A DNA stretch of 48,602 bases. Origin: Lentisphaeria bacterium (GTDB lineage: Bacteria > Verrucomicrobiota > Lentisphaeria > Victivallales > Victivallaceae). The stretch spans positions 1 through 48,602 of the forward strand of contig JAFTUS010000112.1 in NCBI GenBank assembly GCA_017466125.1, given 5' to 3'. This document shows positions 42,024 through 44,900 of the stretch, one piece after another. The notes beneath the pieces are model-generated. The model saw only the letters and a program-made list of their open reading frames with translations. It was not told where the DNA came from and did no database searches. How positions within the stretch are numbered: position 1 is the first letter of the stretch; each line of letters opens with the position of its first letter. The position numbers and the translations under genes are program-made.

Positions 42024-42312
42024 TCAGCCCATTCTCAATGCCTCCGGCGGCAAATCAGAAAGAATTTCTCTGATCGATTTGTCTCGAGTCTGATTTACTT
42101 TTGAATTAAGGATCGCTTCAGCAAGTTCTTTCTCATTTTCATCAAATCCGTATTCTTGTTCATCTTCGCAATCTTCTTCTCTTTCTGTTAAAATATACCC
42201 ACCTGAACTTAATTGATACCTCAACCCGTTATAATAAAAAACAAATCATCCTTCTCCGGATTATCAAAACACTCATAAAATTTATCCACGCAGTTTTTAC
42301 TTCCATTCCCAT
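42024..42312 (-). pseudogene. Third immunity-like paralogue, broken by two 1-nt deletions
   Basis: Closely related to 42619-42909. Reading from the ATG at 42312 gives MGMEVKTA, then a missing base in the sense codon TTG (near 42288) shifts the frame. A second missing base near 42232, within the sense FFDY codons, shifts it again. With both restored the product would read on through the intact 3' frame (YQLSSGGYILTEREEDCEDEQEYGFDE and NSKVNQTRDKSIREILSDLPPEALRMG). An ATG at 42224 could still yield a 66-residue C-terminal piece. Same spacing and ribosome-site context as its siblings. Confidence 0.8.
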
Positions 42313-42325
42313 ATTAAATCCTTAA

Positions 42326-42607
42326 TTATACCAGTAATTTTTCCGGAGGAAGTTCCAACAGCATTTCCCGGATTGATTTATCACGAGTCTGATTTACTTT
42401 GGAATCTAAAACTGCTTCAACAAATTCTCTGTTGTCGCCAGCAATACAATATTCCATTTCATCCCCGGTTACAAGATCTTCTGTGATAATATATCTTCCC
42501 CAATAGCTGATCATATAATTCAAGCCGTCATAATCAAACATCAAATTATCTGTATCGTTTTTTTCTATATTTGCATAAAATTTATCAAGAGCAGTTACCA
42601 TTTCCAT
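42326..42607 (-). CDS. Immunity-like small acidic protein, paralogue 2
   Basis: A 93-residue acidic protein starting MEMVTALDKFYANIEKND; the ATG at 42607 has AAAGGAT 6 nt upstream and is preferred over the GTG at 42622. It shares with paralogue 1 the pattern TALDKFY, the F-DY-GL-Y core, E-----VNQ-RDKSIRE and ELPPE, at perhaps half identity, so it has diverged much more than copies 1 and 3. Small acidic proteins in tandem behind a toxin-like gene are typical of immunity-gene arrays. No named family was recognised. Confidence 0.75.
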   Translation of the reverse strand: MEMVTALDKFYANIEKNDTDNLMFDYDGLNYMISYWGRYIITEDLVTGDEMEYCIAGDNREFVEAVLDSKVNQTRDKSIREMLLELPPEKLLV

Positions 42608-42618
42608 ATTAAATCCTT

Positions 42619-42909
42619 TCACCCCAGCCAGATTGCTTCCGGCGGCAATTCAGCAAGGATTTCTCGGATGCTTTTATCACGAGCTTGATTTACTTTTGAA
42701 TTAAGGATCGCTTCAGCAAGTTCTTTTCCAGTTTCATCAAAACCATATTCTTGTTCATCTTCACCATCTTCAGTTCTCCATGTAAAAATATAGCAGCAAG
42801 AACTCAACTGATAACTTAATCCTTCATAGTCAAAAAACAAATCATCCTTTTTAGGATTTTCAAAACACTCATAAAATTTATCCAACGCAGTTTTTACTTC
42901 CATTCCCAT
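42619..42909 (-). CDS. Immunity-like small acidic protein, paralogue 1
   Basis: A 96-residue acidic protein beginning MGMEVKTALDKFYECFENPKK, with the core LFFDYEGLSYQLSS and a C-terminal NSKVNQARDKSIREILAELPPE. Its start lies 16 nt inside the 3' end of the upstream MGGRGAS gene, with AAAGGATTTTAT before the ATG, so the two are tightly coupled as expected for a toxin and its immunity gene. The core resembles small immunity proteins seen behind phage-linked polymorphic toxins, by memory only. Function inferred from context. Confidence 0.75.
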   Translation of the reverse strand: MGMEVKTALDKFYECFENPKKDDLFFDYEGLSYQLSSCCYIFTWRTEDGEDEQEYGFDETGKELAEAILNSKVNQARDKSIREILAELPPEAIWLG

Positions 42910-43295
42910 ATAAAATCCTTTCTGCCTGTAGCTTTTTCTATTGCATTTTTGTACTTTACTATATCTGACTTGCTTAAAGGCGAATGTGCTTTTTCACGTT
43001 CGCCATTTTGCCATTTGTGACAATGAACAGCTTCTTTGGGATGTTTATCAAAAGGATGCCCCCAGTCAATATCTTTTTTTACATTGCCATTTTTATCATA
43101 TACTCTTAATTGCTTTACTGTTCCATATTGAGTTTTTCCCAAATATTGCGAATTCGGTTTTGCTGTTGTCGGCAGTATTTTGCCTTTGGGATCTGAACTT
43201 TTTATAATCGGTATGCCATGAGCTTTCCCCACTGTTCTGTATCCTCTCGGCGCACGTCCGCTTCTTCCGCCGTAACTTGCTCCTCTTCCTCCCAT
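42894..43295 (-). CDS. Small MGGRGAS-type protein, candidate polymorphic toxin
   Basis: A basic 133-residue protein. The N-terminus MGGRGASYGGRSGRAPRG is a Gly/Arg-rich leader of a kind I associate with phage-linked proteins. The C-terminal 80 residues hold a compact domain with YGTVKQLRVYDKNGNVKKDIDWGHPFDKHP, then VHCHKW and REKAHSPLS, that is, a D-x-D-x-x-H and H-x-H-x-W pattern that could be a nuclease-type active site. AAGGAG precedes the ATG, which lies 1 nt after the DUF4417 stop. Followed by three immunity-like paralogues. A toxin role is inference; a phage accessory protein is the alternative. Confidence 0.65.
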   Translation of the reverse strand: MGGRGASYGGRSGRAPRGYRTVGKAHGIPIIKSSDPKGKILPTTAKPNSQYLGKTQYGTVKQLRVYDKNGNVKKDIDWGHPFDKHPKEAVHCHKWQNGEREKAHSPLSKSDIVKYKNAIEKATGRKDFIWEWK

Positions 43296-43296
43296 A

Positions 43297-43850
43297 TTAT
43301 TGTTTCTCCTTATAACTTACACCGCGATGGCCGTATTTCCAAGTCATTGAAGTGTTTGAAAACGAAATAATTTCGTAATTTCCTGATTTTAATTCATCCG
43401 GAACTTTTCCGTAAAGGATGATTTTGTCAGGATTCAATTTTTCGATCATTGCTTCAAATCCACGCAAAAATATCTTGCGGCACTCTTTGGAGTACATTGT
43501 CCCAACAGAGGAAACAGCAACAACAGAACCGGGAGTTATGCCATCAAAACAATAATCAAAACTGTCAATGTCTGCCCACGAAACTGTTGGAATGACACGG
43601 CATCCGGATCGCTGCATCATTTGTCCGAGAAGTCTGGAACGGTAAACATTCCAGATTTTCATTGCTTGCGGCATATCCGTATACAATGAAAAATCCGGAA
43701 AAAGCACAACATCAAAATTTCTTAAATGCGGTATATAACGCCAAGGTAAACGCCACACTCTTTCAAAACGGAAATCATCCAGAAAGAAATGAATTCCACA
43801 AGAAAATTGTGTACTTCGCAAAGAATGACAAAAATTAATCAGCGTATAAA
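43297..43850 (-). pseudogene. DUF4417 protein gene, 5' end missing
   Basis: The conserved part of a DUF4417 domain is clear: LINFCHSL, CGIHFFLDDFRFERVWRLPWRYIPHL, FDVVLFPDFSLYTDMPQAMKIWNVYRSRLLG, VIPTVSWADIDSFDYCFDGITPGSVVAVSSVG and DKIILYGKVP. The family is found on phages and mobile elements of gut bacteria and its function is unknown. Upstream of about 43850 the frame runs into sequence antisense to an IS3 transposase, so the natural N-terminus (tens of residues) is lost. A downstream start could still express a shortened protein. Linked to the MGGRGAS gene by a 1-nt gap. Confidence 0.75.
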
Positions 43851-43884
43851 TGTAAAAGATTATACCGCGTGTCAAATTGCAGCC

Positions 43885-44253
43885 ATGAAACGCAGGATGG
43901 CGATCTTGGAAGAAGAAAATCAAATTTTTCGCCGGAGTGGATGCGGTACATCAGCCTCAATTGATGAAAAGGTTGCTGCTGTAAAACAACTTCAAGATAA
44001 TTTTTCAATTCACGCAATTTGTCGTACTCTCAATTTGACAAAAGGTACATACTATAACCGCTTGTACCGAACTCCTGCAGAAACTGTTTTTGAGCAGCGC
44101 AATGATGAATTGTCATCGATCATAAAAGAAATATTCGAAGTAAGCAATGGACGGTTCGGTGCAAATATGATCCATGTTAAAATGCGAGAGCAGGGAATTG
44201 TCGTATCAAGAAAGCATGTGAAAACCTTGATGAATAGAATGCAATTGGTCAGT
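43885..44253 (+). mobile_element. IS3-family transposase internal fragment
   Basis: About 123 codons of IS3-type transposase: the end of an OrfA-like leucine-zipper region (MKRRMAILEEENQIFRR) fused in frame to the N-terminal HTH_21 part of OrfB (FSIHAICRTLNLTKGTYYNRL, then ELSSIIKEIFEVSNGRFGANMIHVKMREQGIVVSRKHVKTLMNRM). The DDE catalytic domain, the OrfA helix-turn-helix and both terminal inverted repeats are absent, so this is a dead scrap left by deletion. It separates the DUF4417 gene from the 5' gene fragment at 44254-44528. Confidence 0.8.
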
Positions 44254-44528
44254 CGGCAGATGCCTCCGGTTCTTTTCAATACCCGCAGCAGAAGAGCTGC
44301 GAGACAACCGCTCTTTTTCTCTGCCGGAGTTTCTATCGCACAAACTTCCGCCCAATACGCTTCCCGTTCCGGAGTATCTCGCCATGGCGGCAATTGCGGC
44401 GGCTTTGGTAATAGTGGGTATTTTGACCAGTCTGCGCTCATGTTTATTGTATTTACTTGATATTTTGTTTCGTTGTATTGACAGATGCAATCAAAGTTAT
44501 CCTGATTTCCCGACAAAGATTTTTCCAT
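44254..44528 (-). pseudogene. 5' fragment of an unidentified gene, cut by IS3 remnant
   Basis: A frame with a very good start: promoter TTGCAA-N17-TATATT and AAAGGA 8 nt before the ATG at 44528. About 92 residues (MEKSLSGNQDNFDCICQY start; then SADWSKYPLLPKPPQLPPWR, DTPEREAYWAEV and KKSGCLAALLLRVLK) precede the IS3 junction, after which the frame is antisense to the transposase. It was probably the first gene of the operon that continued into DUF4417 and the toxin/immunity-like genes. No family recognised. The opposite strand also has an open frame with a membrane-helix-like segment, but without start signals. Confidence 0.55.
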
Positions 44529-44550: not shown

Positions 44551-44579
44551 AATATAACAGAGCAAGGTACTTATTGCAA
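44551..44579 (-). promoter_or_regulatory. Promoter of the broken accessory operon
   Basis: Minus strand: TTGCAA (44579-44574), a 17-nt spacer and TATATT (44556-44551). The predicted leader is short, with the ribosome site right after the start of transcription. Confidence 0.7.
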
Positions 44580-44610: not shown

Positions 44611-44791
44611 CATACGGAGCGTGAGCGGAGTGCTTCATATCGGAATGAAATGAAGATGCTTCATATTGTGGAGTGAAACGAAACAATGCTTCATCGTCAG
44701 GCTTTTATGAAGCACGGCTTCGCCGTATGAAGCGGCACGTTGTGCCATGAAGCGCACCTGCGGTGCATGAAGCGAAGCCTGACGGCTTCAT
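44611..44791. repeat. Tandem hairpin-unit array beside tRNA-Pro
   Basis: Four ATGAAGC boxes at 44707, 44727, 44747 and 44767 are spaced exactly 20 nt apart. Each of the first three is followed by a 13-nt hairpin with a 5-bp stem and 3-nt loop: ACGGC/GCCGT, GGCAC/GTGCC and GCACC/GGTGC. Outside them CGTCAGGCTT (44695-44704) pairs with AAGCCTGACG (44775-44784), closing a multi-branched structure. Inverse boxes GCTTCAT occur at 44632, 44658, 44688 and 44785, and the left edge begins with CGGAGCGTGAGCGGAG. It holds no gene. Confidence 0.85.
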
Positions 44792-44792
44792 T

Positions 44793-44820
44793 TTTTTTTG
44801 CCCAAATTTGGGCAAAAAAA
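44793..44820. repeat. 28-nt perfect palindrome abutting the tRNA-Pro 3' end
   Basis: TTTTTTTGCCCAAA (44793-44806) and its exact complement (44807-44820), touching the CCA end of tRNA-Pro. Read from the tRNA, seven Ts come first, then a GCCCAAATTTGGGC hairpin. The T run could end tRNA transcription; the palindrome may also be part of an integration junction. Confidence 0.8.
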
Positions 44821-44900
44821 TGGTCGGAGTGACAAGATTCGAACTTGCGACCTCTTGGTCCCGAACCAAGCGCTCTAATACCAGGCTGAGCTACACTCCG
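44821..44900 (-). tRNA. tRNA-Pro (CGG anticodon)
   Basis: An 80-nt cloverleaf with encoded CCA: acceptor CGGAGTG/CACTCCG (C1-G72, as usual for bacterial tRNA-Pro), D arm GCTC/GAGC, anticodon stem CTTGG/CCAAG with loop TTCGGGA, T arm GCAAG-TTCGAAT-CTTGT. The D loop, AGCCTGGTATTA, has 12 nt, three more than a common tRNA-Pro. The mobile-looking island starts at its 3' end, fitting use of this tRNA as an insertion site. Confidence 0.95.

Follow-up and report, generated by a model that had tools for sequence, protein, structure and literature searches.

Why would a bacterial chromosome carry, next to a tRNA gene, a train of short hairpins separated by one and the same heptamer? The question was raised by positions 44611 to 44791 of a 48,602-nt contig of a Lentisphaeria bacterium (JAFTUS010000112.1), which, over its full length, is called the window here. 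An initial annotation had described 20-nt units composed of an ATGAAGC box and a 13-nt hairpin with a perfect 5-bp stem, enclosed by a 10-bp outer stem, and all of these parts were located in the sequence of the window (Table 1). It had missed the first half-array, the inversion between the halves, the tRNA-Pro gene, and, on the opposite side, what remains of a protein gene. The full plan of the element is that of two inverted half-arrays, each built of 7-nt boxes and hairpins. Hairpins of the first half are longer, with purine-rich GGA..GRA loops; read in the GCTTCAT orientation, those of both halves have purine loops, mostly of the GNA or GNRA type. The tRNA-Pro gene lies about 30 nt beyond the array, with its 3′ end facing it. 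A search of the window against Rfam returned two tRNAs only, and the array matched no RNA family at gathering score.

Table 1. Features of the hairpin array and its surroundings in the window
Feature	Position	Strand	Remarks
Four-helix-bundle gene remnant	44453-44528	-	Internally deleted; start MEKS.., C-terminal LCREIRITLIASVNTTKQNIK; assigned by homology
Sigma-70-like promoter of the four-helix-bundle gene	44551-44579	-	TTGCAA-N17-TATATT; read by eye
Header ATACGGAGCGTGAGCGGAGT	44612-44631	+	GGA-GC-GNRA-GC-GGA motif; common to the 29 true arrays of the genome scan
First half-array	44632-44694	+	GCTTCAT boxes at 44632, 44658, 44688; two hairpins between the boxes, at 44639-44657 and 44665-44687
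Outer stem, 5′ arm CGTCAGGCTT	44695-44704	+	10-bp stem with AAGCCTGACG; outer stems covary across arrays
Second half-array	44707-44773	+	Four ATGAAGC boxes at 44707, 44727, 44747, 44767 (20-nt period) and three 13-nt hairpins; GCTTCAT orientation on the - strand
Hairpin ACGGC-TTC-GCCGT	44714-44726		Perfect 5-bp stem
Hairpin GGCAC-GTT-GTGCC	44734-44746		Perfect 5-bp stem
Hairpin GCACC-TGC-GGTGC	44754-44766		Perfect 5-bp stem
Alternative hairpin GAAGCCTGACGGCTTC, then AT and T-run	44774-44789	+	Overlaps the 3′ arm of the outer stem
Outer stem, 3′ arm AAGCCTGACG	44775-44784	+	
Last GCTTCAT box	44785-44791	+	
Junction palindrome TTTTTTTGCCCAAATTTGGGCAAAAAAA	44793-44820	.	Interval between array and tRNA; repeats in inverted form the T-run that follows the tRNA
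tRNA-Pro (CGG) gene	44824-44900	-	Rfam bounds; 3′ CCA at 44821-44823

Conservation and distribution of the arrays

In the genome to which the window belongs, the pattern ATGAAGC-N13-ATGAAGC has 26 matches and its reversed control 0, far more than chance would give. Its presence in the order is patchy: 48 of 137 genomes have it, a count that includes a few single matches without a hairpin, and the reversed control was 0 in every genome. The fold that had been noted in a single array is kept in these further copies. Over 32 distinct units, stem positions were paired in 95.6% of the cells, compared with 60.1% after shuffling, and covariation reached 0.929 versus 0.240 ± 0.038, a level attained in 0 of 500 shuffles; sliding the partner columns by 1 to 3 positions lowered it to 0.02 to 0.13. 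Perfect stems were present in 34 of 52 distinct units, with 12 different sequences (shuffled mean, 5.2; maximum, 15), and GNA loops in 33 of the 52 on the GCTTCAT strand versus 1 on the opposite strand. The outer stem covaries as well, with a mean of 8.9 for 18 distinct arm pairs versus 6.3 after shuffling (maximum of 500 shuffles, 7.7), although array copies share descent, and all of these counts are not independent and overstate independence. The initial annotation had argued from compensatory change within the one array to selection on folding. Conservation of the pairing is strongly supported, but by the numerous copies in different genomes rather than by the within-array comparison on which that argument was built. 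Pairing by itself does not prove selection, because copying can also yield perfect palindromes.

The header alone was scanned for in 84,980 species genomes, using a pattern wide enough for GGAGCG-(0-3)-AGCGGAGT-NN-TTCAT. The scan returned 37 loci, 29 of them confirmed arrays, all in Lentisphaeria MAGs and mostly from the ruminant gut. Lentisphaeria arrays and chance coding matches were all that it found, and the occurrence in gut Firmicutes that the initial annotation had proposed is not supported by this pattern. Literature searches for box/hairpin arrays of this kind gave nothing relevant. The arrays are widespread in gut Lentisphaeria and probably represent a family of mobile DNA repeats that apparently has not been described before. 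In one genome (G120, loci L268 to L297), 103 pattern matches correspond to about 50 array inserts, mostly inside pilin-like genes, and this copy number is a recent burst. The window comes from the assembly of a fragmented MAG whose contamination is estimated at 6%, and arrays were absent from eight other species of its assigned genus; the contig's place in that genus is therefore tentative.

Viral contigs gave 0 matches to the header pattern and 21 to box arrays, only two of which have real hairpins, neither belonging to the Lentisphaeria family. Hairpin arrays of a similar style, with ATGAAAT and ATGATG boxes and without the header, were seen in viral contigs L066 and L073. A wider superfamily that includes the viral ATGAAAT-box arrays is possible.

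Targets at tRNA ends and in pilin-like genes

Twenty-three of the header-only finds are complete arrays with the array end in view. For 18 of them, the distance from the array end to the 3′ end of a tRNA or tmRNA gene, which is on the opposite strand, is 23 to 64 nt, and another 3 adjoin a partial tRNA 3′ end. The genes targeted by GCTTCAT-box arrays, all loci considered, include those of tRNAs for Pro, Val, His, Ala, Arg, Phe, Gln, and Leu as well as tmRNA, and the targets of a relative with CTTCAC boxes include tRNA genes for Ser, Pro, His, Phe, Arg, and Val. The palindrome between tRNA and array is elsewhere an inverted copy of the tRNA tail, often extending into bases specific to that tRNA (GACCA/TGGTC for Pro, CACCA/TGGTG for Val, TCCGCCA/TGGCGGA for Ser).

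At five loci (tRNA-Leu, -Arg, -Pro, -Pro, and -Asn), exact repeats of the tRNA's own 3′ end, of 22, 20, 22, 22, and 19 nt, respectively, start in or beside the T-loop and flank hairpin-rich inserts of 121 to 212 nt; the second copy adjoins a GCTTCAT array at three of the five. Such repeats are the signature of site-specific insertion with target duplication. The window copy has no tRNA-end direct repeat of at least 13 nt around its array, and for most of the cassettes linked to a tRNA, a second tRNA end was absent from the sequence examined. Empty sites are provided by seven other genomes in which the syntenic tRNA-Val gene has neither array nor palindrome.

The tRNA-Val site is used by different elements, with an array in G039 and a tyrosine-recombinase-like (integrase-like) gene in three of the seven genomes without one (L217, L219, and L223). 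The remnant of an integrase N terminus lies behind CTTCAC arrays at tRNA-Pro, and no integrase or recombinase gene was seen among the window ORFs near the array.

The second target is a protein gene. In the window's genome and its relatives, arrays interrupt pilin-like genes without shifting the frame, with a copy of FTLIELLV on either side. All 10 distinct inserts are in frame and stop-free, with a copy-to-copy distance of 189, 192, or 231 bp, and the array-only inserts of about 190 bp contain no integrase. Pilins whose complete ORF was read have their native leader before the first FTLIELLV, and the second copy starts the normal mature protein. In array-free pilins of the same genome, the leader runs straight into FTLIE, and the inverted copy CGATCAGCG is absent. 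An uninterrupted orthologue of an interrupted pilin gene was looked for and not found. Prepilin peptidase cuts the prepilin leader before F. The association with integration sites that the initial annotation had suspected is thus supported by the arrays at tRNA ends and by the duplications of FTLIELLV and of tRNA 3′ ends around the inserts.

Further observations concern the pilin-like genes themselves. One of them (L277) carries two inserts in a row, both in frame and apparently from different box families. In other pilin-like genes (L230, L233, L246, L253, and L256), another inverted-repeat element (GGGAGAAAGGGAGAACC...) stops exactly before FTLIE, which makes the site a hotspot for repeats of more than one family. 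The window's own genome (G000, 3.8 Mb) has 135 pilin-like N termini, none of which was found on the window contig.

The linked IVP/S23 gene

On the far side of many arrays lie a promoter and a gene for a 119-residue PF05635 protein, the 23S rRNA-intervening sequence protein (IVP). Intact homologues in the equivalent place match PF05635 (E = 3.4e-25) and TIGR02436, and the nearest solved structure is 2rld. What is left of the gene in the window covers query residues 97 to 119, the C-terminal 23, at 91% identity (positions 44456 to 44524); the equivalent promoter and the start of the gene are conserved in other copies. The order tRNA-array-PF05635 recurs in three box families (GCTTCAT, CTTCAC, and ACATCRT) with three protein clades. 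In a set of 41 genomes, all 5 that have true arrays also have the close IVP clade; of the other 36, a single one has it, in the form of a remnant. Many arrays lack the IVP gene, which may therefore be cargo. No IVP protein was found in viral contigs, which gives no link to phages.

Inverted short repeats or heptamers around distant IVP genes exceeded shuffles in some loci and were not clear in the close clade. Short tandem repeats lie upstream of distant IVP genes of the same order (L172, L180, L187, L192, and L196), and in some cases inverted copies of them follow the gene, a hint that box arrays may generally accompany the IVP family.

The IVP/S23 four-helix-bundle family has been described as having no known function, and the Coxiella intervening sequence (IVS) that encodes such a protein carries tandem heptamers (GACAGAT) upstream of the gene (PMC4990558). 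Array elements and 23S rRNA IVSs share a protein-coding gene of one family and a location at a structured RNA gene whose product is trimmed. In contrast to the IVSs, the arrays are located at tRNA and tmRNA 3′ ends and in pilin genes rather than within 23S rRNA, their heptamers alternate with hairpins in two inverted half-arrays, and array-only forms exist.

A candidate mobile element and its alternatives

On balance, we favor the view that a small site-specific mobile element, with targets where the gene product is later trimmed, ends on its tRNA side in the array. Such an element would insert behind the CCA of tRNA or tmRNA genes and, in frame, at the boundary between leader and mature protein in prepilin-like genes, and because a 19- to 24-nt direct repeat of the target would be left behind, the product should be restored. 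The two inverted half-arrays, with their 7-nt boxes and GNA-loop hairpins, would most likely serve the recombination machinery as a folded single-strand recognition site. The IVP/S23 protein of the larger copies would probably bind nucleic acid as a partner belonging to the element, and cutting and joining would fall to an enzyme acting in trans, perhaps of the tyrosine type, like those encoded behind the same tRNAs. The window copy, too, may have moved in this way.

Parts of this scheme recall known systems. Like tRNA-targeting integrative elements with tyrosine recombinases, the arrays are found at tRNA 3′ ends, and five tRNA loci have direct repeats of about 20 nt; unlike them, they are inserts of about 120 to 230 bp of hairpins, in which no recombinase was seen, and have a second, protein-coding target. 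Integron attC sites and other folded attachment sites are foldable as single strands and have boxes of roughly 7 nt. The arrays share these traits with attC but sit at chromosomal tRNA and prepilin targets. Rickettsia palindromic elements are short palindromic inserts found at RNA genes and, with the reading frame kept, within protein genes. The stop-free, in-frame pilin inserts (10 of 10) resemble them, whereas the box/hairpin units, the 19- to 24-nt target duplication, the linked IVP gene, and the different phylum set the arrays apart.

It is unlikely that the array instead functions as a structured RNA, either as the 3′ trailer of the tRNA or as a small RNA from the other strand ending at 44791 to 44800, in which the boxes of the inverted halves would pair and act in tRNA processing or termination. 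The tRNA does adjoin the array with no classical terminator between them on its strand, the array ends on the + strand in a hairpin and T-run, and the loops are GNA/GNRA-like. Moreover, both strands fold better as RNA than shuffles (mean z, -3.7 and -5.0), with the tRNA strand folding relatively better in 17 of 19 copies. A function in RNA is difficult to reconcile, however, with the same units inside pilin-like ORFs, with syntenic tRNAs that lack arrays, with the patchy presence between genomes, and with the lack of an Rfam match. In addition, wobble pairs show no strand bias (6 versus 7 between the strands of 52 distinct units), a result that points neither to RNA nor to one particular DNA strand.

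The arrays might also be passive decoration, no more than the regulatory region or the attachment arms of ordinary tyrosine-recombinase islands, in which copying errors rather than selection gave rise to the hairpins. We consider this improbable: copies agree in stem pairing, loop type, outer stem, and two-half plan, and the other box families follow the hairpin rule as well. The integrase-like genes behind the same tRNA-Val in relatives and the integrase remnant behind CTTCAC arrays would fit such islands, the 7-nt repeats could serve as arm-type sites, and the junction palindromes look copied from the target, but the array-only inserts in pilin genes would not be expected.

Spread as REP/BIME-like repeats by a Y1 (RAYT) transposase is disfavored and very improbable: the short unit of box and hairpin, its two orientations, and the high copy number are similar, but Y1_Tnp (PF01797) was not found in four array-bearing draft genomes (G010, G016, G025, and G036; 82 to 98% complete), Y1 matches in other genomes are not tied to arrays, a 7-nt box with mostly perfect stems differs from a 4-nt GTAG-type box beside an imperfect hairpin, and the tRNA-end and prepilin targets have no counterpart, long target duplications and tRNA specificity being, to our knowledge, no features of REPs.

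If the array is indeed the end of a site-specific mobile element, a broader and more tentative proposal can be made, namely, that IVP proteins and their cognate box/hairpin arrays might constitute a new class of mobile element, a recombination system acting on folded single strands, with insertion confined to sites where the product is later trimmed. Insertion would then be silent at the level of the product, falling in the 3′ trailer of a tRNA or the leader of a prepilin, and one target logic, removal of the insert by maturation, would join an RNA target and a protein target. The IVP/S23 family would gain a function. The box sequence changes with the IVP clade, which makes the pairing of protein and nucleic acid site testable, and natural bursts, such as that of about 50 copies in one genome, offer material for studies of mobility.

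Two other regions of the window were looked at. At 42024 to 43295 (- strand), a small glycine-rich ORF, possibly the end of a toxin, is followed by three paralogous acidic ORFs that resemble immunity or repeat genes; the two ORFs tested from this region had no Pfam match. At 43789 to 44460 (+ strand), an ORF with an HTH_21 domain corresponds to the start of an IS3-type transposase and is apparently broken off just left of the array.
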